Both the position numbers and the translations under genes were made by a program. From NCBI GenBank assembly GCA_902613545.1, contig CACMHW010000001.1, positions 26,001 through 90,000 of the forward strand: a stretch of 64,000 nt of DNA, written 5' to 3'. Below the pieces are notes generated by a model that was given only the letters and a program-made list of their open reading frames with translations, was not told the origin of the DNA and ran no database searches. The DNA is from an uncultured Pelagibacteraceae bacterium. Lineage in GTDB: Bacteria > Pseudomonadota > Alphaproteobacteria > Pelagibacterales > Pelagibacteraceae. Shown in pieces: positions 6,333 through 55,806 of this stretch; the first letter of the stretch is position 1, and every line of letters starts with the position of its first letter.

Positions 6333-7427
6333 TTAAACATCCTCTAGTAATGATTTTGTGATTATCTCGTCCTCTAAATTAATATTAAAATTTTTTTTTT
6401 CTCTACTATATAAGTTTCTTATAAAGCTAAATAAGTTTTTGGCATATAAACTTGAAGCAGTTAGTGGTAAACTATTCATTAGACTTTTTACACCAATCAC
6501 TTTTATTCCCTTAACTGTATTTATTTTCCCGGCCTCTGAGTATGCAGAGTTACCTCCTTGTTCTGCTGCCAAATCATAGACTATAGAGCCAGGTTTCATC
6601 AATTTTACTAAATCTTCGGTTAATATTCTTGGTGCAGGTTTACCAGGGATTAGTGCAGTACAAATAACTATATCATTTTTTTTAAGTGCTTCTTTCATCA
6701 TTTCAGCCTGTTTTTGTTTATAATCATCTGAGGCTTCTTTTGCATATCCACCTGCTGTTTCCATATCTTCTGCTTGATCAACAGTTAAAAATTTTCCACC
6801 TAAGCTTTCAACTTGCTCTTTTGATGCCGCTCTAACATCAGTCGCTGAAACTATTGCACCTAATCTTTTTGCAGTGGCAATCGCTTGTAAACCTGCCACA
6901 CCTGCTCCGATAACCAAAACTTTAGCGGCTGGTACAGTCCCAGCAGCTGTCATCATCATCGGTACAGCTTTTTCAAATTCAGCGACACAATCTACTACCG
7001 CTCTGTATCCAGCTAAATTTGATTGAGATGATAGTACATCCATTGATTGAGCGCGCGTAATACGAGGTAATAATTCAAGTGAAAAAGTTTTAATCTTTTT
7101 TTTTAAAATTTTATCTATTTGAATTTTATTAATTGACGGATTGAGCATTCCAATTAAAATTGTATTGTCTTTTAATAAACTTATTTCATTTTCAGAAGGA
7201 CAATTCACTTTAATTATTAAATCACTTGAGTTTAAAACTTCACTAGAAGAGTCTTTAATTTCTGCGCCAGTTTTTTCATATTCGTTATCCTCGATACCTA
7301 AGTGGGTTGCGTAATTTTTTTCAATTAATACTTTTAGACCTAGTCCTTTAATATTTTTTGCAGTTTCAGGAGTTATGGAAACTCTTTTTTCTAATGCTAA
7401 ATCTTCTTTAATTGAACCTACTATCAT
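6333..7427 (-). CDS. pntA: NAD(P) transhydrogenase alpha subunit, NAD-binding part (alpha-1)
   Basis: MIVGSIKEDLALEKRVSITPETAKNIKGLG...VLVIGAGVAGLQAIATAKRLGAIVSATDVRAASKEQVESLGGKF. Confidence 0.95.
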   Translation of the reverse strand: MIVGSIKEDLALEKRVSITPETAKNIKGLGLKVLIEKNYATHLGIEDNEYEKTGAEIKDSSSEVLNSSDLIIKVNCPSENEISLLKDNTILIGMLNPSINKIQIDKILKKKIKTFSLELLPRITRAQSMDVLSSQSNLAGYRAVVDCVAEFEKAVPMMMTAAGTVPAAKVLVIGAGVAGLQAIATAKRLGAIVSATDVRAASKEQVESLGGKFLTVDQAEDMETAGGYAKEASDDYKQKQAEMMKEALKKNDIVICTALIPGKPAPRILTEDLVKLMKPGSIVYDLAAEQGGNSAYSEAGKINTVKGIKVIGVKSLMNSLPLTASSLYAKNLFSFIRNLYSREKKNFNINLEDEIITKSLLEDV

Positions 7428-7693: not shown

Positions 7694-7810
7694 GCCTGGC
7701 AACGTCCTACTCTCCCATATCTTAAGACAAAGTACCATCGGCGCTGAAGGGCTTAACTTCCGAGTTCGGAATGGGATCGGGTGTGACCCCTTCGCAATAA
7801 TTACCAGGCA
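7694..7810 (-). rRNA. rrf: 5S ribosomal RNA
   Basis: Minus strand TGCCTGGTAATTATTGCGAAGGGGTCACACCCGATCCCATTCCGAACTCGGAAGTTAAGCCCTTCAGCGCCGATGGTACT...GGGAGAGTAGGACGTTGCCAGGC: classic 5S with closing TGCCTGG/CCAGGC helix. Confidence 0.96.
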
Positions 7811-7871: not shown

Positions 7872-7946
7872 TGGTGGGCGTGATAAGAATTGAACTTATG
7901 ACCTCTACGATGTCAACGTAGCGTTCTACCACTGAACTACACGCCC
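7872..7946 (-). tRNA. tRNA-Val (GAC)
   Basis: Minus strand GGGCGTGTAGTTCAGTGGTAGAACGCTACGTTGACATCGTAGAGGTCATAAGTTCAATTCTTATCACGCCCACCA; anticodon GAC, encoded CCA. Confidence 0.93.
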
Positions 7947-10232: not shown

Positions 10233-10718
10233 TTATTGTCTTACCATTTTAAATTGATAAATTTTATAAAAAATTTCAATTAAAAATGAGAATAATATTG
10301 TTGATATTGCGCTATAGGCAAAAAATGGAATAGCAGCGGTATAGCAGGAAATTATTCCATTTAATGAATATTCGTACATTCCAGAAATCCAAACACCAAA
10401 ATTTGTCACTATGAAAAAAATAATAGCTCCTACAAGTGCACCTGATAATCTTTTGATTAATGTCTTCCCAAAAAAATTAGAAATCAAACCAATTAAAAGT
10501 ACACTTCCCCATGTAAAAAAAGTGCCATAATGATATCCAATCACTAGATCAGTTATTGCGAAACTTAAAATAACAGCTGGTATATATTGCCTGCCAAAAA
10601 TAGCCGGTACGTAAAAACTCAATGCAATAAGACTAGTAAAATTTGGAGGATGAGGAACAAATCTACTAACCGCGAGCGCCAAGAAAATTCCTAAACAGAT
10701 GCTTATTTTTTCCATCAT
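10233..10718 (-). CDS. DUF6580-like small integral membrane protein, possibly cobalamin-linked
   Basis: FLALAVSRFVPHPPNFTSLIALSFYVPAIFGRQYIPAVILSFAITDLVIGYHYGTFFTWGSVLLIG; multi-TM; directly downstream of a btuB-like gene. Confidence 0.6.
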   Translation of the reverse strand: MMEKISICLGIFLALAVSRFVPHPPNFTSLIALSFYVPAIFGRQYIPAVILSFAITDLVIGYHYGTFFTWGSVLLIGLISNFFGKTLIKRLSGALVGAIIFFIVTNFGVWISGMYEYSLNGIISCYTAAIPFFAYSAISTILFSFLIEIFYKIYQFKMVRQ

Positions 10719-10724
10719 AAATGT

Positions 10725-12659
10725 TTAGTATACGCTTTTTAATCCTATATTAAAAGAACGATCTAACTGAGAATAGTCTCGAACCGTTTCATATTTTTCG
10801 TCAAATATATTGGTTATATTGAAAAATAAATTATAACTGTTCCACAATTTATAATTAATTGATAAATCATTTACAAAATAATCGTCGATTCTCTCATCTT
10901 GAAAAGTCCTATTCCCATTTCCGTAATCTCTCGCCATATCTGACCACTTGGAATTCAAAATATAGCTTAAATTTTCATTTTTTGCCGGCTTATAACTTGT
11001 TTGAAGATTAATTATATTTCTTGGAACTCTTACCATCTGAGCATTAGTATAATTCTGATTTTTGTTGGGATCATCTTGTTCTGCGCCATCATATGTCGAG
11101 GTATAAGTATAATTCAAATTAAAATTTAAATAATCAGAAGCCCGCCATCCTGACATAATTTCTAAACCTTGAGATTTTACTATACCATCAGCGTTTTGAG
11201 TTGTATAAGCTGCCCCAGAGCTATTATTATTTTTCCATCCCTCCAACACATTGTCATATTGTATGTCAAAATATGTTAAGTCTAATTTTATACCATATTC
11301 TAAGAAACTTTTTTCAAATCCAATATCAAAACTTTTACTATTTTCTGCTTTAACAAAAGGTAATGAATTTGAGTTTGCAGCATAAACATAATACATTTCA
11401 TACAATGAAGGAAATCTAAATCCTGTTCCGTATGAAGATTTTATTTTTGTAGATTTATCGTCAAATAAATATGCAAAAGTAGCTCTATGTGCTTCCTCAT
11501 CGCCTGCAACGGAATTATCATCAAACCTAGAACCAAATGTAGCAAAAATATTTTTTGTAAATCTTTTTTGATAGTCAAAATATTTAGAAGTGGTGTAAAA
11601 AGACTCAACTTTTTTGCCTGTTAAATTTTGATTGTAACCAATCTGATCATCTTCTCTTTCAATGCCAAATAGTAAACTATTATCTAAATCGAAATTATAA
11701 TTACCTTTGTAACCATAATTATATCTATCTCCATAATAATTATCTTTTACAGTATTTCCACTTCCGGGAGCAGCATTATATATTCTTTTTATATACGTCT
11801 TAGCTAAAGAAACTTCATTAATAAAATTTTTATTATATTTATACTCTAAAGATATGTTGGCAGAGGACTGTAAACTATCCTCCGACTCATTGTGTGCAGC
11901 TGTTGCAGTATCAACTTCTTTATCATATTGTTTATATGTATCTGAAAATCTTAAATTACTCTTTAGATTAAGGTAATCAGATAATTTTTGGTTATAATTT
12001 GCTACAATAGAATTATTTTTATAACCATCTTCTTCATCATTATGAGTCATTGCTGACATACCACTTGTTTGAAATCTCTCAAAGCCTATATAAAAATCCT
12101 TATCTTCATCTGCACCTGAATAATTAGCTGAATAATTATTAGTTCCATAAGAGCCTGTGTTAAACATATAATTTTTTTGTCTTCCTGGTTGACCTTTTTT
12201 TGTAGTAATATTTATTGTTCCTCCTATAGCTCCGCTACCATAAACTGAGCTTTGATTGCCTTTTAAAATTTCAACTCTTGAAATTTGACTTGTTAAAATA
12301 TGATTAAAATCAAAGTCTCCTGAAACACTTGACGGGTCAGACATTTTTACGCCATCAATATAAACAGTCGAATATCTTTTTGGCAAACCTCTCAATTGTA
12401 TAGCTGAAGTAGATCCGTGCCCACCATTTTGAAAGAAGTTTACGCTTGTTGTATTTCCTGATAATACGTCACCTAAAAAATACTCATTGGTATTTTTTAA
12501 GAATTCTTCATCTAGAACTACGACTGAGGTACCCACAGTAGACACTGACTGAGGTTTTTTGCTCGGTGCTATCACAATAACTGGAATGTCTTGTGAAAAT
12601 GAGACGCTATTGAATAAAAATGTTAAAAATAAAAAATTTACTAAAATTTTTTTTAGCAT
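10725..12659 (-). CDS. btuB: TonB-dependent outer-membrane receptor, BtuB-type
   Basis: Start at MLKKILVNFLFLTFLFNSVSFSQ (signal peptide); plug domain TSAIQLRGLPKRYSTVYIDGVKMSDPSSVSGDFDF...RVEILKGNQSSVYGSGAIGGTINITTKKG; C-terminal beta-barrel. The riboswitch-like leader supports a cobalamin role. Confidence 0.85.
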   Translation of the reverse strand: MLKKILVNFLFLTFLFNSVSFSQDIPVIVIAPSKKPQSVSTVGTSVVVLDEEFLKNTNEYFLGDVLSGNTTSVNFFQNGGHGSTSAIQLRGLPKRYSTVYIDGVKMSDPSSVSGDFDFNHILTSQISRVEILKGNQSSVYGSGAIGGTINITTKKGQPGRQKNYMFNTGSYGTNNYSANYSGADEDKDFYIGFERFQTSGMSAMTHNDEEDGYKNNSIVANYNQKLSDYLNLKSNLRFSDTYKQYDKEVDTATAAHNESEDSLQSSANISLEYKYNKNFINEVSLAKTYIKRIYNAAPGSGNTVKDNYYGDRYNYGYKGNYNFDLDNSLLFGIEREDDQIGYNQNLTGKKVESFYTTSKYFDYQKRFTKNIFATFGSRFDDNSVAGDEEAHRATFAYLFDDKSTKIKSSYGTGFRFPSLYEMYYVYAANSNSLPFVKAENSKSFDIGFEKSFLEYGIKLDLTYFDIQYDNVLEGWKNNNSSGAAYTTQNADGIVKSQGLEIMSGWRASDYLNFNLNYTYTSTYDGAEQDDPNKNQNYTNAQMVRVPRNIINLQTSYKPAKNENLSYILNSKWSDMARDYGNGNRTFQDERIDDYFVNDLSINYKLWNSYNLFFNITNIFDEKYETVRDYSQLDRSFNIGLKSVY

Positions 12660-12689
12660 TGGCTTTCCTTTGGTTCGTTGGAATGTTAG

Positions 12690-12845
12690 TTCCAATTTAT
12701 TTTTTAGCCACTGCTAAATTTAATTGTAGAACTAGACTTTTCCTGGCCATTGTTCAACAGCGGACTATACTGGGTGGCGCTCCGACTTTACGGTTGCAGG
12801 AACAGCAAATGAATTACACACTTATTTCCCACCATGCATTTCAGT
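12690..12845 (-). promoter_or_regulatory. Cobalamin riboswitch-like leader
   Basis: Minus strand GGTGGGAAATAAG...GCTGTTCCTGCAACCGTAAAGTCGGAGCGCCACCC...GGCCAGGAAAAGTCTAG matches the B12-riboswitch pattern (GCTG-CC-GCAAC-GTAA core, GTCGGAGCG segment, GCCAGG-A element) just upstream of btuB. Boundaries approximate. Confidence 0.8.
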
Positions 12846-12870
12846 AATATAATGAGAATACAAAAAAACT

Positions 12871-30378: not shown

Positions 30379-32118
30379 CTAGTGTATTTGATCAGTCGAT
30401 TGTAGATTTTTATCTAAACTTTTCTTTGCCTCGGCTTTTTTTAGTTTAGCTAAATTTTTCTCTAATTTTCGTTTTTCTTTTTTCTTTAAATACTCATCAA
30501 AACAAGCTAAACCCTTTAACTCTGAATTATTTACTTTACTAGTTTTAGAGTTAAATCTGTCTCCATCAGAACTTGTAGCTTCCCAGTTAACCATGCCGTC
30601 CATTATTTCGTTGCCTTGATGAATATTTTGTTTTTGTTTTTTTATATCGCTTGCTGATAACCCTGCCTTACCAAGTGCTCCGTCACCGTGCCTGAATCCT
30701 CTAAAGTTTACGTCTTTATCTTCGTACAATTGAGAGATTTGTTTTAAGGTTCTGTCTCTCTGTTTATTATAATAATTTTTCATAAGTTCTGTATTTGCCC
30801 ATTTTAAGCAATCGTAAAACTCGTCATCCGTTAACTCTGTAAAATTAGTACATATTAAATCTGAGTTTAAATGTTTTCTTTCGTAAAAGTCCTCAGCAGG
30901 GTTATCTTTATCTAAACTACCCATTTCTATTGCATCGTAGTATAAAGGTGAACCTGGGTAAGGAGTTACTGGTCTTATTGTTCTTTTTTGGGCAAAGTCA
31001 TCGTATTCAATTAAAAAATTTACAGCTTTCTTTATTGTCTCTTTATTATCTCCTTTATTGCCAAATATAAAATTCAATCCAGGGCTAATTCCAACTTTTA
31101 AAGTATCTTTAATACCTTGTTCGATTATATCTGGTCTTAGTCCTTTTTTCATATTATTTAGAACTTTTTGGTCCATACTTTCTATTCCGTAATTTATAAA
31201 TACGCACCCTGCATCTTTCATAAGTTGTAAAAGCTCCTCGCTGCAATAGTTAAGTCTACCATTACAAGCCCATTTAACAGGTACGCCTCTTTTAAGAAAT
31301 TCTTTACAAACATTTTCAGTATGTTCAACAGATGACATTAATAAATCATCTTGAAATGCAACATATGTAATACCCCATTTTTTATTTAACATTTCAACTT
31401 CATCCAAAAGATTTTCTGGTGACCGAACCCTGTACCCAGGATCCATTCTGTAACAAAATGTGCATTTAAAAGAGCACCCTCTTGCTGACATCAAAGGAAA
31501 AACAAAATCAGTTGGATTTGAATTCGGCATCCTTTGCATTCTGTAATACTCCATTGGAAAAAGTTCGTACGGTATCGGTGGTAAAGAGTCCAAATCATGA
31601 ATTAGAGGAGCTCTTAGGGTCTTTTTTAATTTACCGTCATTATCAAGCCATGCAGTTCCGGGAACCTCCTCAAGCCAATCGCCAGGCTTGTAACTTCCTG
31701 TTTTTTTCTTTTGAACTTCTAATTCTTCCATCAATTTGCAAACTGTTATTTCACCTTCACCCATACAAACTACATCTGCCCCTGTTTTTTTTATAAAAAA
31801 CTCAGGTTCTGGTGTAGGTCCATAGCCGCCCATCATGAAAAAAGGTCTCTGCTTAGACTGATTAATTGCATTTGATAAAGATAAAACTTTTTTGTATTGA
31901 TAATAACCTGCGATAACACTTAAAACTACTACATCAAATTTGTTTTCGTCTAGATAAGTCCTTAAATGATCATCTGGCCAGTGATGCTTATCCTGACTCC
32001 ATACAGTGATTTCATGACCATCTCTTTTTAAAACAGCTGCGAGAGCGCCAAACCCCATAGGGAAGATATGGTCATATGAACCGTTATCGTAAACTACGAA
32101 TAAAATTTTTTGTGACAT
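30379..32118 (-). CDS. B12-binding-domain radical SAM protein
   Basis: N-terminal B12-binding-like domain (PMGFGALAAVLKRDGHEITVWSQD...MMGGYGPTPEPEFFIKKTGADVVCMGEGE) plus radical SAM CSFKCTFCY (CxxxCxxC). Confidence 0.9.
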   Translation of the reverse strand: MSQKILFVVYDNGSYDHIFPMGFGALAAVLKRDGHEITVWSQDKHHWPDDHLRTYLDENKFDVVVLSVIAGYYQYKKVLSLSNAINQSKQRPFFMMGGYGPTPEPEFFIKKTGADVVCMGEGEITVCKLMEELEVQKKKTGSYKPGDWLEEVPGTAWLDNDGKLKKTLRAPLIHDLDSLPPIPYELFPMEYYRMQRMPNSNPTDFVFPLMSARGCSFKCTFCYRMDPGYRVRSPENLLDEVEMLNKKWGITYVAFQDDLLMSSVEHTENVCKEFLKRGVPVKWACNGRLNYCSEELLQLMKDAGCVFINYGIESMDQKVLNNMKKGLRPDIIEQGIKDTLKVGISPGLNFIFGNKGDNKETIKKAVNFLIEYDDFAQKRTIRPVTPYPGSPLYYDAIEMGSLDKDNPAEDFYERKHLNSDLICTNFTELTDDEFYDCLKWANTELMKNYYNKQRDRTLKQISQLYEDKDVNFRGFRHGDGALGKAGLSASDIKKQKQNIHQGNEIMDGMVNWEATSSDGDRFNSKTSKVNNSELKGLACFDEYLKKKEKRKLEKNLAKLKKAEAKKSLDKNLQSTDQIH

Positions 32119-49291: not shown

Positions 49292-49954
49292 TTAATTTTT
49301 AATTATATAGGAAGGTTGTTTGTAATAACTGAGTTTTCTCAATTGAGTATCTTTTTTATTTGCTTTTAAAAATTCGTCGATTGCTTTAGTAACACCCTCT
49401 GATACATTATAATCATCAATTAAAATTATACCTTTTTTTACAACATTATCATAAAATTTATTTAATATTTTTTTTGTTACAAAATATGTATCTAAATCTA
49501 AATGTAAAAGTGCAATTTTAAGAGAATTGTTTTTTTTTAAGAAATTCAATGCAGTAAAATTAATGTCTCCTTTTATTAATTCAAAATTTTTAAAGCCTTT
49601 TTTTAATAAAATTTTTTCAAGTTTTTTAATTTGCAATCCGTCACCAGCATCTTTTTCAAATTTACTTATAAATTCTTTATCAAATTTTTTTGTTTTTGAT
49701 CTTGGAAATTTACCAAATGCGTCAAATGCATAAAATTTTCTACTAGAGCTATTCTCTAAAATTTCTCTAAAGGTCATCAATTTTATTAAGCTTGATCCTT
49801 TAAAAACGCCAAACTCTACAATATCACCTGGAATATTTTTTATCATTTTATAAATTTCATATTGATAAATAAGTTTTGCAATTCTTGTTACATCACTTAA
49901 ATGATAAAATGAGTTTTCAGCGTTCCAGGGACTAAATGAATTTTTTTTCACCAA
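49292..49954 (-). CDS. TylF/MycF-like or class I SAM methyltransferase
   Basis: PGDIVEFGVFKGSSLIKLMTFREILE...FYAFDAFGKFPRS...IALLHLDLDTYFVTKKILNKFYDNVVKKGIILIDDYNV. Confidence 0.82.
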   Translation of the reverse strand: MVKKNSFSPWNAENSFYHLSDVTRIAKLIYQYEIYKMIKNIPGDIVEFGVFKGSSLIKLMTFREILENSSSRKFYAFDAFGKFPRSKTKKFDKEFISKFEKDAGDGLQIKKLEKILLKKGFKNFELIKGDINFTALNFLKKNNSLKIALLHLDLDTYFVTKKILNKFYDNVVKKGIILIDDYNVSEGVTKAIDEFLKANKKDTQLRKLSYYKQPSYIIKN

Positions 49955-50781
49955 TATTTATTCTCTTTTAATTTTTTTCTCTCTAATTCAAGAAAATTTT
50001 TCTTTCCACTGCCCATACAATCTTTAAATTTCTTAAGCATAGCCACTAAAGATCGCATACCATTTTCTTCAAGTGAAGAAGCTTGATCTGTGCCCCACAT
50101 TGTTCTGTCTAAAGTTATATGTCTCTCAATAACAGTTGCGCCTAAACAGGCTGCCATTAAGCTCGGTGAAACTGATTTTTCGTGGCCTGAGTAGCCAACA
50201 TCAACTTTAAATTTTTTTTTTAACGTTTTAATCATATTCAAATTTAAATCTTTATCATCGCATGGATAAGCTGAAACACAGTGCATAAGGGTGAAATTAC
50301 ATTTATTCTTTTTAAATATTTTGACCGCTTTACTCACATCAGACATTTTGGACATTCCAGTGGAAATAAATGTATGTTTTCTTTGTTTGGCTATTTCATT
50401 GAGTAACTTTTGATTTGTTAAAACTGGTGATGCAACTTTATTATATTTACATTTATACTTTTTTAAAAATTTACAACTATCTATATCCCAAGCACTTGCA
50501 AACCAATCAATTTTAATTTTTTTACAATATAGATTAATTTTATCAAATTCTCTTTTTCCAAACTCAATTTTTTTTTTATAATTTAAATAGGTAATTTTTC
50601 CCCAAGGTGTATCTCTAATTACTTCCTTTTTATTCTTTGGTGTTGAAATATCTGGTGTTCTTTTTTGAAATTTTACCGCATCAAAACCTACTTTTTTTGC
50701 TTGGTCAATTAATTTTTTTGCCAATAAAAGACTTCCGTTATGGTTTATACCTATCTCTGCAATCAAATATATATGCTTCAT
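49948..50781 (-). CDS. N-acetylneuraminate synthase family protein, short form (no C-terminal SAF domain)
   Basis: IYLIAEIGINHNGSLLLAKKLIDQAKKVGFDAVKFQKRTPD...LMHCVSAYPCDDKDLNLNMIKTL...VGYSGHEKSVSPSLMAACLGATVIERHITLDRTMWGTDQASSLE; ends at 277 aa. Confidence 0.92.
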   Translation of the reverse strand: MKHIYLIAEIGINHNGSLLLAKKLIDQAKKVGFDAVKFQKRTPDISTPKNKKEVIRDTPWGKITYLNYKKKIEFGKREFDKINLYCKKIKIDWFASAWDIDSCKFLKKYKCKYNKVASPVLTNQKLLNEIAKQRKHTFISTGMSKMSDVSKAVKIFKKNKCNFTLMHCVSAYPCDDKDLNLNMIKTLKKKFKVDVGYSGHEKSVSPSLMAACLGATVIERHITLDRTMWGTDQASSLEENGMRSLVAMLKKFKDCMGSGKKNFLELERKKLKENKYW

Positions 50782-50784
50782 AAG

Positions 50785-51468
50785 TTAATCTTTTAAAAAT
50801 ACTTTTAAAGATTTAACAATTTTTAAATCTTCAAAGTCATCGATCTCCAGACTCTCAATTTTGTTCATGGCAAAATATCCAATTTTTCCAAATAATCTAC
50901 ATTTTTCTTTTAAAAATTTTTCAGATTTAAAAATATAAAAGGATCCGTTTTCTAAAAATTTTTCTTTTATATTTTGTCTCATAGGTCTATTTCTATAATC
51001 ATAATTTGGTTTTAATGATTTTTTACTCTTTTTCCAAACGAAAAAATTACTAATTTTCATAGCAGAGAATAAACTATCGAGTTTTTTTTTTTCAAATTTG
51101 ATAATTGCTTTATTTAAAACTTTTGAAGATCTTATTGGTGATGTTGGTTGTATACCAACTATATTTTTTGGATTAACCCTTTTAACTTTTAAAAATTTGA
51201 TAGCGTGTAACCAGGCCTGTTCAGATGAGGAGTTATCTAAAGCAAATTTTTTAGGTCTTTTAATTATTTTAGCCCCAAACTTTTTTGAAATTTTGAGTAT
51301 CTCATCAGAGTCAGAACTTACCCAAACTGATGAAATTTTTTTTGTTTTTAAACAGGCTTTGATTGACCAGTAGATTAAGGGTTTATTTTTAAGTCTTATT
51401 AAATTTTTTTTTTTAATACCTTTTGAACCTCCTCTTGCTAAGATTATTGCAATTGTTCTATTAGTCAT
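50785..51468 (-). CDS. Acylneuraminate cytidylyltransferase
   Basis: MTNRTIAIILARGGSKGIKKKNLIRLKNKPLIYWSIKACLKTKKISSVWVSSDSDEILKISKKFGAKIIKRPKKFALDNSSSEQAWLHAI...GIQPTSPIRSSKVL. Start at 51468 preferred over 51525. Confidence 0.93.
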   Translation of the reverse strand: MTNRTIAIILARGGSKGIKKKNLIRLKNKPLIYWSIKACLKTKKISSVWVSSDSDEILKISKKFGAKIIKRPKKFALDNSSSEQAWLHAIKFLKVKRVNPKNIVGIQPTSPIRSSKVLNKAIIKFEKKKLDSLFSAMKISNFFVWKKSKKSLKPNYDYRNRPMRQNIKEKFLENGSFYIFKSEKFLKEKCRLFGKIGYFAMNKIESLEIDDFEDLKIVKSLKVFLKD

Positions 51469-51549
51469 TGTTGAAGACTGACAAAAATTTTGCATAGCTC
51501 CGCACTTTGCAAAAACTTCTTGCATTAAAAGCTATATTAATCATTTATA

Positions 51550-52047
51550 CTAGATTGGTTGAGCTAAAAAATTTTTTTTCTTTACATTTACTCTTAGTTC
51601 ACCAATCATTAACTCTATCTTATTTTTTTGAAATTTCATTATTTCAAAAATTTTATTTGTAAAAATACCGGACTTAAATCTATAGTTGCAATTTAAATCA
51701 ACATTAAAAAAATTATTTTGTATATATCCATCTTTATTTTCGAATTTTTTACAATTCGATATAAATTCTTTAATTTCCTTTTGAGTTTCTATATATCCAG
51801 GAAGATATGATTTAAATCCTTTAAAATACTTTATTCGATTTAGAAAATTTATATTTTTAAGATTATCGTTAAAACAAAAAATATAATTTCCCAATAATTT
51901 TGTATCTTTCGATCTAAGTTTATTTTTTTTAAAGTTTTGAATTTGATATTTGGGGGAATATATTTCTAGATCGGAACCTACAATCCTTTTAAATTCTTTT
52001 TTAAAAAGATTAGTTTTTTTTTGATCAATTTTTAAGATTGCCCACAT
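51550..52047 (-). CDS. NusG/RfaH-like transcription antitermination protein
   Basis: MWAILKIDQKKTNLFKKEFKRIVGSDLEIYSPKYQIQ...LLGNYIFCFNDNLKNINFLNRIKYFKGFKSYLPG (NGN-like), C-terminal KOW-like FKSGIFTNKIFEIMKFQKNKIELMIGELRVNVKKK. Confidence 0.72.
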   Translation of the reverse strand: MWAILKIDQKKTNLFKKEFKRIVGSDLEIYSPKYQIQNFKKNKLRSKDTKLLGNYIFCFNDNLKNINFLNRIKYFKGFKSYLPGYIETQKEIKEFISNCKKFENKDGYIQNNFFNVDLNCNYRFKSGIFTNKIFEIMKFQKNKIELMIGELRVNVKKKNFLAQPI

Positions 52048-52048
52048 T

Positions 52049-52354
52049 TTATTTTTTTTGATTTAGTTCTTTCTTTAATTGATCGTATTCAGCCATTTTT
52101 CTTTTCATAAAATTTAATGTCATTCTTGTTTTTGCTGATATGCCTTTAGGCGTTAAAACATAAACGTAATTTAATTTTTTTGGATTATTTTTAAAATTTT
52201 GAATTTTAACTAAACCTTTTTGTTTAAGTGCTTTTAAGCAATAATTAAATTTGCCCAAACTAAAACCCAATTCTTCAGCCATTTCTCTTTGAGAGGATTT
52301 TTTGCTGTTGCCTATTTTTCTTAATACTTCAAAATGGTCGGTTTTGTTATCCAT
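52049..52354 (-). CDS. MarR-family EPS-associated transcriptional regulator
   Basis: FEVLRKIGNSKKSSQREMAEELGFSLGKFNYCLKALKQKGLVKIQNFKNNPKKLNYVYVLTPKGISAKTRMTLNFMKRKMAEYDQLKKEL: winged-helix pattern of the EPS-associated MarR family. Confidence 0.87.
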   Translation of the reverse strand: MDNKTDHFEVLRKIGNSKKSSQREMAEELGFSLGKFNYCLKALKQKGLVKIQNFKNNPKKLNYVYVLTPKGISAKTRMTLNFMKRKMAEYDQLKKELNQKK

Positions 52355-52356
52355 AT

Positions 52357-52371
52357 GTTCAAATTTTGAAC
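52357..52371. promoter_or_regulatory. Palindromic putative operator 1 (GTTCAAATTTTGAAC)
   Basis: Perfect 7-1-7 palindrome starting 3 nt upstream of the MarR-like start codon. Confidence 0.6.
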
Positions 52372-52379
52372 ATTATATC

Positions 52380-52394
52380 GTTCAAAAATTGAAC
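52380..52394. promoter_or_regulatory. Palindromic putative operator 2 (GTTCAAAAATTGAAC)
   Basis: Same half-sites GTTCAA/TTGAAC, centre 23 bp from operator 1. Confidence 0.6.
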
Positions 52395-52465
52395 AAACAA
52401 CTAAATTAATTAATATTTAGTTATAGAAAGGCATCAAGCCACAATATCTTGTTATTACAAAAAAA

Positions 52466-53245
52466 TTAATTTTTTTTGAATAACAATATCTGTAAATGAG
52501 AGAAATTTTCTTTAACTCCTATAATTGCTTTATCAAGATCAAGAGTAAATTTAGAGTTGAAAGTAAAATTCTTTTTATTTTTTGATTTCAAATATATAGC
52601 ATCCAAAAACCGCGAGTTAAAAAAATGTTTCGATAAATTTTGATTATTCTCTTGTAATTTTTTTAACCCTTTTATTTTAAACATTTTTTCACTAAGATAT
52701 TTATTATGAAACTTAGGATGAATAATATTCAAACCATATTTTGATCTTAAATTATTTAATCTTTTTAAACCACTTTCAAAACATTCAATAACAATTAATT
52801 TTCCATTTTTTTTTAAATAACTAAGTACGTTTAATAGAGATTTTTTTTGATGAGATTTATTTAAAATGTTTATTAAAACTCTCTGTAATATAATTAGATC
52901 AAATTTTTTTAAATAGTTTTTTTTTAATACTCTAATATCCCCATGAGAAATATTGGCGTTTTTTTTTAATCTATTGTTGGAAATATTATAAAGTAAAATA
53001 TTATTTTCCATACCAAATAAACGATGCTTATTCAAATTTGATATTTGTGATAACGTATATCCATTTCCACAACCGATATCTAAAATTTTTAATTTTTTTT
53101 TTGAATTTTTTACTACGTTTATGATAAATTTTGTTTCTTCGTTTCTTACAAAAATATCATTCATTGTGGATAGTTTTGATTTTTTAAAATTAGTAGCAAC
53201 TTTATTGTAATGATTGTTAATAATTTTATCATAAGACTTTTTCAT
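52466..53245 (-). CDS. Class I SAM-dependent methyltransferase
   Basis: LKILDIGCGNGYTLSQISNLNKHRLFGMENNILLYNISNNRL...FDLIILQRVLINI...LLNVLSYLKKNGKLIVIECFESGL. Confidence 0.85.
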   Translation of the reverse strand: MKKSYDKIINNHYNKVATNFKKSKLSTMNDIFVRNEETKFIINVVKNSKKKLKILDIGCGNGYTLSQISNLNKHRLFGMENNILLYNISNNRLKKNANISHGDIRVLKKNYLKKFDLIILQRVLINILNKSHQKKSLLNVLSYLKKNGKLIVIECFESGLKRLNNLRSKYGLNIIHPKFHNKYLSEKMFKIKGLKKLQENNQNLSKHFFNSRFLDAIYLKSKNKKNFTFNSKFTLDLDKAIIGVKENFSHLQILLFKKN

Positions 53246-53247
53246 AT

Positions 53248-54270
53248 TTATTTTTTTAAATGATTAAATTTTATAAGAGAATTTTTTTTTACGTTTTTGA
53301 ATAACTTTTTTCCTATTATTTTGATTACTTGGTTCGGACTTATGCCGTTTAATTTTGGTCTAAAAGCATTTAAGTCAGAACTTTTTAATATATTACCTTT
53401 TTTAAAATTAGAAGAATAATATAAACTTTTTTTAGCTATTTTCTTTACTAAATTTTCTTTTGAATGGATTATTCTATTTCTAGTTTGAATGCTGGTAAAA
53501 ATGTCATGAATATCTTCGGTAAATTTTTTTAAATTTTTTACGTTCATAGATGCTTTATGATCTGGGCCATTCATATTATTATCCAACGTAATATGCTTTT
53601 CGATCACAGTAGCTCCTAATGCTACGGCAGCTGATGAAGCAATATTACCTCTTGTATGATCTGACCAACCAATCGGGTATCTAAATTTCTTTAACTTTTC
53701 AAAATATCCAAATTGTGTTTCTTTTACTTTAGTTGGATAGTTACTTATACAATGCATGAGACAAAGCATATTTTTTTTACTTTTTAGGAAATTCAATGTT
53801 TTAATTAAATTTTTTTCGTCAATCATTCCAAGAGAAAGAAGAATAGGTTTTTTAAATTTCTTGATTATTTTCAATAATAAAAAATTATCGTTGTCTGTTG
53901 AGGATATTTTAAATATTGGAATCTTTAATTTATTTAAGAATAATGCACTTTCTACATCAAATGGCGTTGATAAAAATTCAATTTTTAATTTATTAGAATA
54001 ATTTTTCAATTCTTTAAATTGATTGAAACTAAATTGATATTTTTTTAAAAGCTCATACATGTTTTTTATATTTTTATTTCCTTTTTGATAATTTACTAGT
54101 GGTGTATTTTTTAAAAGCAGTTTGTCAGGCAAATAAGTTTGAAATTTTACTGCATTAAAATTACTTAATTTAGCATGTCTTATTAATTTTTTTGCTAAAT
54201 CTATAGAGCCATTATGATTAACTCCTATTTCGGCGATTAAATAAGGTTTTTTCTTATCAAATTTTTTCAT
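53248..54270 (-). CDS. N-acetylneuraminate synthase family protein with C-terminal SAF-like domain
   Basis: PYLIAEIGVNHNGSIDLAKKLIRHAKLSNFNAVKFQTYLPDKLL...LMHCISNYPTKVKETQFGYFEKLKKF...IGWSDHTRGNIASSAAVALGATVIEKHITLDNNMNGPDHKAS...KSLYYSSNFKKGNILKSSDLNAFRP. Confidence 0.93.
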   Translation of the reverse strand: MKKFDKKKPYLIAEIGVNHNGSIDLAKKLIRHAKLSNFNAVKFQTYLPDKLLLKNTPLVNYQKGNKNIKNMYELLKKYQFSFNQFKELKNYSNKLKIEFLSTPFDVESALFLNKLKIPIFKISSTDNDNFLLLKIIKKFKKPILLSLGMIDEKNLIKTLNFLKSKKNMLCLMHCISNYPTKVKETQFGYFEKLKKFRYPIGWSDHTRGNIASSAAVALGATVIEKHITLDNNMNGPDHKASMNVKNLKKFTEDIHDIFTSIQTRNRIIHSKENLVKKIAKKSLYYSSNFKKGNILKSSDLNAFRPKLNGISPNQVIKIIGKKLFKNVKKNSLIKFNHLKK

Positions 54271-55118
54271 TTTTTTTCCATGATAAAAAATAGTCGGTTA
54301 TTATTTATAAAATCCTCAAATATTTTAAAACAAGAAAAAAATAAACTTATATTTATCTTTTGATTTTTCATCTTAAAACAACCAATCAAAATATTTTTAA
54401 TTGAAATAAAATTTGAAAAGGGATCAAATATTTTAACAAAAGACTTAATTTCTAAATTGCAGATTTTACTAATTTTATAGAATGAGTTTTTTGAAAAAAT
54501 GAAGCTATGTCTTGGAGAATGATATCCGCTCCAAAAAAGGTTAAAAATATTCCTCGCGCTAGATTCTCCATCAGGTGTAATAATAACTATTTTTGCTCTT
54601 TTTTTTAATTTTTTGAATAAATTTTTAATCAAACTAAAATCTTTAAGATGTTCAATAATGTTGTTTAAAATAATTATATCTGGTTTAAATTTTTTTATAT
54701 TTTCTATATTTTCAATTTTTTGTCTTAAAAATCTTATATTTTTTTTATTATTCGATTTAATACCAAAGTCTATACCAAGACACTTTGTATTTGAATTTTC
54801 GGCTATTCTCTTTAATAAATAACCATTACCACATCCAATCTCTAAAATTCTTGATTTGTCGATATCTAATTTATTTATTATTTTTTTATACTCATAAATT
54901 GAGTACATGTTTTTTAGAAAATTAAAAAAAAGATTAGATCCTGTCGGAATATAATTTTTTGGATAAAGTTTTTTTTTATTAATAAATATTTTGTTTCTAA
55001 AGATTGTTTTGCATTTTAAACATTTGAGGTATCTAGCTTTCTCATCTAAATTGTATTCATAATCGTAGATTTCACCAATAATATCAATTTTTTTCGAGGA
55101 GCAAATTTTACAATTCAT
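54267..55118 (-). CDS. SAM-dependent methyltransferase with N-terminal Cys-rich (zinc-ribbon-like) motif
   Basis: MNCKICSSKKIDIIGEIYDYEYNLDEKARYLKCLKCKTIFRN (CxxC...CxxC); ILEIGCGNGYLLKRIAENSNTKCLGIDFG. Confidence 0.85.
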   Translation of the reverse strand: MNCKICSSKKIDIIGEIYDYEYNLDEKARYLKCLKCKTIFRNKIFINKKKLYPKNYIPTGSNLFFNFLKNMYSIYEYKKIINKLDIDKSRILEIGCGNGYLLKRIAENSNTKCLGIDFGIKSNNKKNIRFLRQKIENIENIKKFKPDIIILNNIIEHLKDFSLIKNLFKKLKKRAKIVIITPDGESSARNIFNLFWSGYHSPRHSFIFSKNSFYKISKICNLEIKSFVKIFDPFSNFISIKNILIGCFKMKNQKINISLFFSCFKIFEDFINNNRLFFIMEKK

Positions 55119-55152: not shown

Positions 55153-55806
55153 TTACTTACTATAACCAAGATGTTTACTTTTTTTAAATAGCCTAAAACT
55201 TCCTTCTTTTTTTATATTTGTTATTTTAGGTACTGGTAATTCTAACTTATAATCTCTTTCAGGATGTCTTTGATAAGAATTTGAATTTACTTTTTCATCA
55301 TTTACGTAGTCTATTCCTTTAAAATCTTTAAATCCTAATTTCCAAACTTTATATCTCCTCTCTCTCATTGGCATATCTTCTGCCCATACAGCCACAAACC
55401 ACTTTTTCATAATTATATCGAATAACTTTTGTAAAAATTTTAAAAAATAAGGGATTTCTAAAAAATCGCTACGAGTAACTCTACAGTTATTTTTGTCAAT
55501 CTCCTCGAAATCAAATACTTGTTTAACCTTTACTAAATTAAAAAGTGTAGAATGATAAACTAACATTTTATTCGGGCTCTCAAGTTTAGCGAGAGTTTGT
55601 TCAGTGATATAAAATGGTACTAGCGGTAATTTTGCTGTTCGCTCAGACAGACATTCTTTTTCATTTTCTCTAATGATTTTGACTTTTTTATAGTGCTCAA
55701 AATGTGTTCCAACTACATGCTCATGGTCCCAATAGTTCCATAACAGTAAATCTTTCGGAAAGGGTGCAACAGCTTCAGAAGTTGATTTTAAATAAGTTTT
55801 CTTCAT
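55153..55806 (-). CDS. Catalytic (SRPBCC-type) domain of a Rieske non-heme iron oxygenase, stand-alone
   Basis: NYWDHEHVVGTH fits N-x2-D-x2-H-x4-H of Rieske-oxygenase catalytic iron sites; later VWAEDMPMRERRY resembles the third-ligand ED region. Confidence 0.68.
   Translation of the reverse strand: MKKTYLKSTSEAVAPFPKDLLLWNYWDHEHVVGTHFEHYKKVKIIRENEKECLSERTAKLPLVPFYITEQTLAKLESPNKMLVYHSTLFNLVKVKQVFDFEEIDKNNCRVTRSDFLEIPYFLKFLQKLFDIIMKKWFVAVWAEDMPMRERRYKVWKLGFKDFKGIDYVNDEKVNSNSYQRHPERDYKLELPVPKITNIKKEGSFRLFKKSKHLGYSK

Follow-up and report, generated by a model that had tools for sequence, protein, structure and literature searches.

Tandem MarR_EPS operators and an ops-like element as a probable two-stage switch for a SAR11 cell-surface island

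NusG paralogues and their loading sites

In E. coli, RfaH is loaded onto RNA polymerase at a DNA site called ops. At this site a small hairpin was shown for the non-template strand, in which a GGTA loop is closed by C3:G8 and T6 is flipped into RfaH, and the pause occurs at TG (PMC5995543). The Bacteroides paralogue UpxY is encoded within the capsule operon, and its described target is the leader that precedes upxY (PMC7819879), and Bacillus LoaP, for which the target leader carries a small inverted repeat, the dfn hairpin, binds a UNCG RNA hairpin (PMC12691694). No paper that mentions SAR11 together with RfaH turned up in the literature searched.

The window analyzed here, a stretch of 64,000 nucleotides from an uncultured Pelagibacteraceae bacterium, encodes on its minus strand a divergent NGN/KOW protein of 165 aa, an RfaH/UpxY-like NusG paralogue (51550-52047). 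The sequence-only reading had named a NusG/RfaH-like protein at this position and suggested a profile search for NGN/KOW; the open reading frame is present and the assignment holds at the level of the family, the window protein alone giving a weak profile score (E=0.015). The UpxY model NF033644 is matched at E<=1 by 13/21 family members, the best with 2.4e-9 over residues 2-144, and the best matches to RfaH and LoaP reach 3.4e-5 and 2.1e-5, respectively. These NCBIfam matches are weak, but collinear, and alignment of the family profile by hhalign gives a modest E=2.2e-4 over residues 2-148 against RfaH plus NusG and 0.0048 against RfaH alone. Membership in the NusG/Spt5 superfamily (NGN+KOW) is found by profile homology along the length of the protein. 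The 20 members first aligned share 32-44% identity with the window protein. A PDB profile search revealed no convincing relative, and a single-sequence AlphaFold model was uninformative (pLDDT 34).

The protein resembles E. coli RfaH as a NusG paralogue that would serve surface-polysaccharide genes. It differs in being encoded within its own presumed target operon, in that nearly all genomes carry one site only and in that the best member, at 23.9 bits, stays below the TIGR01955 (RfaH) cut-off of 144.5 bits. With UpxY it shares the position within the operon and the best NCBIfam match, NF033644; however, the best member is far below the cut-off of this model (37.4 versus 100 bits), a MarR partner adjoins the SAR11 gene, and the candidate recruitment element described below is located downstream of the gene and not in a leader upstream of it. 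LoaP (NF033641) is likewise a NusG paralogue whose target leader contains a small inverted repeat, whereas the conserved part in SAR11 is a linear core beside an AT-rich stem; a UNCG hairpin was not found in the leader, the stems being AT-rich with variable loops.

The MarR_EPS promoter and its island setting

One base upstream of the NusG-like reading frame and on the same strand lies the gene of a MarR_EPS regulator of 101 aa (52049-52354), as had been read from the sequence. It belongs to the family TIGR04176, scoring 127.4 bits (E=2e-37) against a curated cut-off of 88 bits. MarR_EPS proteins are present in 98/201 related genomes, 89 of them above the cut-off. No paper using this family name was found in the literature searched; an operator and promoter arrangement for the family is described here.

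Upstream of the MarR start codon two exact 15-bp palindromes, O1 GTTCAAAAATTGAAC (52380-52394) and O2 GTTCAAATTTTGAAC (52357-52371), are placed with their centers 23 bp apart, O2 being the nearer one at two bases from the ATG. The exact motif GTTCAAN3TTGAAC occurs nowhere else in the genome of 991,549 bases, and the reversed control gave no site. The -10 hexamer TATAAT (52372-52377, minus strand) is located between both operators, and the -35 position (52395-52400, minus strand), which abuts O1 at a 17-bp spacer, is occupied in the window by a poor hexamer, TTGTTT.

This arrangement is conserved. At least one GTTCA..TGAAC operator, allowing up to two mismatches, is found just upstream of MarR in 86/87 loci examined, the single exception being cut by a contig end. 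Among 152 operators compared, 10/15 positions are identical in 148-152 of them and the modal center spacing is 23 bp. The tandem pattern was detected in 48/201 genomes, none of them outside the genus, and never in the reversed control. In the 54 standard tandem loci the -35 abuts O1, the -10 follows about two bases past O1 and then comes O2, so that O1 takes up the 17-bp spacer and the expected transcription start lies under O2. A match of at least 4/6 to TTGACA (in most relatives TTTACT, TTTACA, TTGACT or TTGACA) is seen in 45/54 of these loci, and a match of at least 4/6 to TATAAT at 16-18 bp spacing likewise in 45/54. Because of this geometry of operators and promoter, the MarR protein probably represses its own promoter; the autoregulation suggested by the sequence-only reading, which would have been refuted by palindromes that are not conserved upstream of orthologues, gains support from this comparison. 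In one locus (L019, 889-1032, minus strand) a row of four operators precedes marR. Tandem MarR operators with -35 and -10 elements were also seen before other island sugar genes or operons in three genomes (L119, ~172-209; L120, ~6497-6534; L121, ~10369-10406).

An RfaH-like gene is present at 56/87 MarR loci, directly after MarR in 55 of them and about 1 kb further in one. It is absent from the remaining 31, nearly all of which retain the operators; in the ten of these that were scanned, mostly polysaccharide or related biosynthetic genes follow MarR.

In the window the pair is embedded in a surface-sugar cluster with genes for NeuB, a cytidylyltransferase, epimerases, aminotransferases, a transporter and glycosyltransferases. 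Two NeuB-type sugar synthase genes flank the regulatory pair (49948-50781 and 53248-54270), and a gene for a B12-binding radical SAM protein is located at 30379-32118. The first biosynthetic gene behind the pair encodes a CMP-sugar (PseF-type) cytidylyltransferase (50785-51468, minus strand; the listed reading frame extends to 51525, the likely start being 51468 or 51495). For SAR11/Pelagibacter a hypervariable surface island of 48 kb, HVR2, was described between the 23S and 5S rRNA genes (PMC2217521). The surface-sugar content and the boundary on one side by 5S rRNA (7694-7808) and tRNA-Val (7872-7946), both named by the earlier reading as the end of the run, fit HVR2; together with genome size and AT content they point to a SAR11 organism. 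The 23S rRNA gene is absent from the assembly of this genome.

The pair was originally taken as the first two genes of an unbroken minus-strand series forming a single cluster of about 44 kb. This does not hold: four minus-strand genes lie upstream of it (52466-53245, 53248-54270 for NeuB, 54267-55118 and 55153-55806) and the run continues beyond 5S to 3921. One functional unit of 44 kb is unlikely, because an AdoCbl-II riboswitch inside the island (12767-12847, minus strand) precedes a TonB-dependent receptor gene (10725-12695, minus strand), signalling a separate unit from 12.8 kb onwards. Since the minus-strand run is not one unit, the claimed length was too strong; the MarR and RfaH-like genes are the first two behind their own operator-bearing promoter. 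Scans for terminators of 33.0-52.9 and 7.6-27.5 kb showed no excess over shuffled sequences.

An ops-like element behind the RfaH-like gene

Directly after the RfaH-like stop codon an ops-like core was observed, a finding that is new here. In the window it is AAGTGCGGAGCTATG (51493-51507, minus strand), the sole copy in the genome. A AAGTGCGGAGC-type core, usually with NNTG next, follows the RfaH-like stop codon in 69/70 distinct loci, the GTGCGGAGC-type core lying 36-69 nt past the stop while the downstream genes vary by locus. At the pause positions that follow, 65 of these 69 loci have T and 63 have G. A divergent RfaH-like locus (L190 in genome G203) is without the element.

An ops site of the GGCGGTAG type was not found in the target leader; its place is taken by GTGCGGAGC, a core that is related to it but not the same and that NNTG usually follows. 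If the E. coli ops GGCGGTAGCGTG (12 nt) and the SAR11 element are aligned on the pause TG, both share G-10, C-9, G-8 and G-7 as well as T-1 and G+1. Unlike ops, the SAR11 element has GGA in place of the GGTA loop, which makes the loop one base shorter, and has no flipped T. The likeness may in part extend to the small non-template hairpin shown for ops. Standard DNA folding of the element's 13-mer did not predict a mini-hairpin; to our knowledge, standard folding parameters do not capture the stability of GNA loops. The heptamer d(GCGGAGC) fits the class of GNA-loop mini-hairpins with two G-C pairs, reported to be unusually stable (PMC4686876), suggesting as a hypothesis that such a hairpin might form here. 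One locus (L075) has ACGGAGT, a change of a paired G-C to A-T that represents a single event.

The element is found almost only where the RfaH-like gene occurs. The 15-base form AAGTGCGGAGCNNTG is present in 46/57 genus genomes with the protein versus 0/64 without it and absent from the reversed control (Fisher p=3e-23, a value that overstates independence because the genus sample shares ancestry); two further strict matches lie in large genomes of the same class. The shorter 13-mer is present in 61/70 genus genomes with and 2/99 without the protein (169 in total), the absences being approximate since most compared genomes are incomplete. Moreover, GTGCGGAGC was not found in the 31 MarR loci lacking the protein, and the association extends over proteins that have diverged and over loci that differ in the genes downstream. 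It would be left unexplained if only MarR autoregulation were real and the NusG-like protein acted in cis on any elongation complex without a loading site, a possibility that we consider very improbable even though MarR loci devoid of the RfaH-like gene nearly always keep their operators.

The core contains GGAG, and its ATG could start the next gene at some loci, as would be expected for a Shine-Dalgarno signal of the first biosynthetic gene that has no role in recruitment. A ribosome-binding-site reading was rejected, as GGAG is just 2 nt away from an ATG that is often missing. At many loci the element carries ATTG, TTTG or GTTG, with the start of the gene lying farther downstream, the conserved stretch AAGTGCGGAGC extends beyond GGAG alone, and MarR loci without the RfaH-like gene lack the core, making a translation signal unlikely.

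An inverted repeat usually abuts the core on its 5' side, in the window TGCAAGAAGTTTTTGCA (51508-51524, minus strand). Its stem has at least 7 bp in 57/69 loci versus about 5 loci expected from shuffles, the mean folding energy is -4.5 versus -1.4 for shuffles, and the arms vary yet still pair (TGTAAAA/TTTTACA, TGTCTTT/AAAGGCA, TATCGAAA/TTTTGATA). Together with the LoaP precedent (PMC12691694), this would speak for the repeat itself as the signal. However, the stem is AT-rich, variable in sequence and in 11/69 loci short (3-5 bp), whereas the core is nearly invariant, rendering a reading centered on the repeat rather unlikely. The window's repeat, folded alone, does no better than shuffles.

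A second operator-plus-element site was found in one genome (G088), 11 kb upstream of the first (L192, 4216-4332), after the 23S end and before a second run of genes. The order is 16S, two tRNAs, the 23S end (recognized by eye, as 23S is mostly masked), TTTACT-operator-TAAAGT, a leader with the element and the gene run. No marR or rfaH-like gene lies beside this site, which argues for a module, made up of operator and element, that does not depend on the regulator genes and suggests that the regulators, including the RfaH-like factor, may act on it in trans.

A probable two-stage switch for the surface island

The control unit is documented in its anatomy, its conservation and its co-occurrence with the RfaH-like gene. 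For its action we infer repression, pausing, recruitment and antitermination, and a two-stage switch for the HVR2-type island, with a MarR-repressed promoter and subsequent loading of the RfaH-like protein at an ops-like pause, appears probable. In a first stage, MarR_EPS would bind to O1 in the -35/-10 spacer and to O2 over the transcription start, repressing its own promoter until a signal releases it. In a second stage, the transcript would first encode MarR and the RfaH-like protein, and RNA polymerase, soon after passing the stop codon of the rfaH-like gene, would pause at T|G of the element. GCGGAGC would then be exposed in the non-template strand and bound by the RfaH-like protein, which would stay on the polymerase and counteract pausing and termination along the polysaccharide genes. 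The processive antiterminator of RfaH/UpxY type that had been envisaged for a long cluster may thereby be supplied with a mechanism, while the length of that cluster had been overstated.

More tentatively, a NusG paralogue encoded in the operon might be recruited by a distinct code: a non-template d(GCGGAGC) GNA-loop mini-hairpin at a consensus-like pause behind the paralogue's own gene, usable in trans and travelling with the protein as an optional HVR2 module. We regard this extension as possible, with the balance somewhat against it.

SAR11 ranks among the most abundant groups of bacteria in the ocean. The element is a base-resolved candidate loading site for an operon-encoded NusG paralogue, tied to its gene by presence and absence, and together with the operators it offers a testable switch that may govern the HVR2 surface island of these bacteria (PMC2217521).
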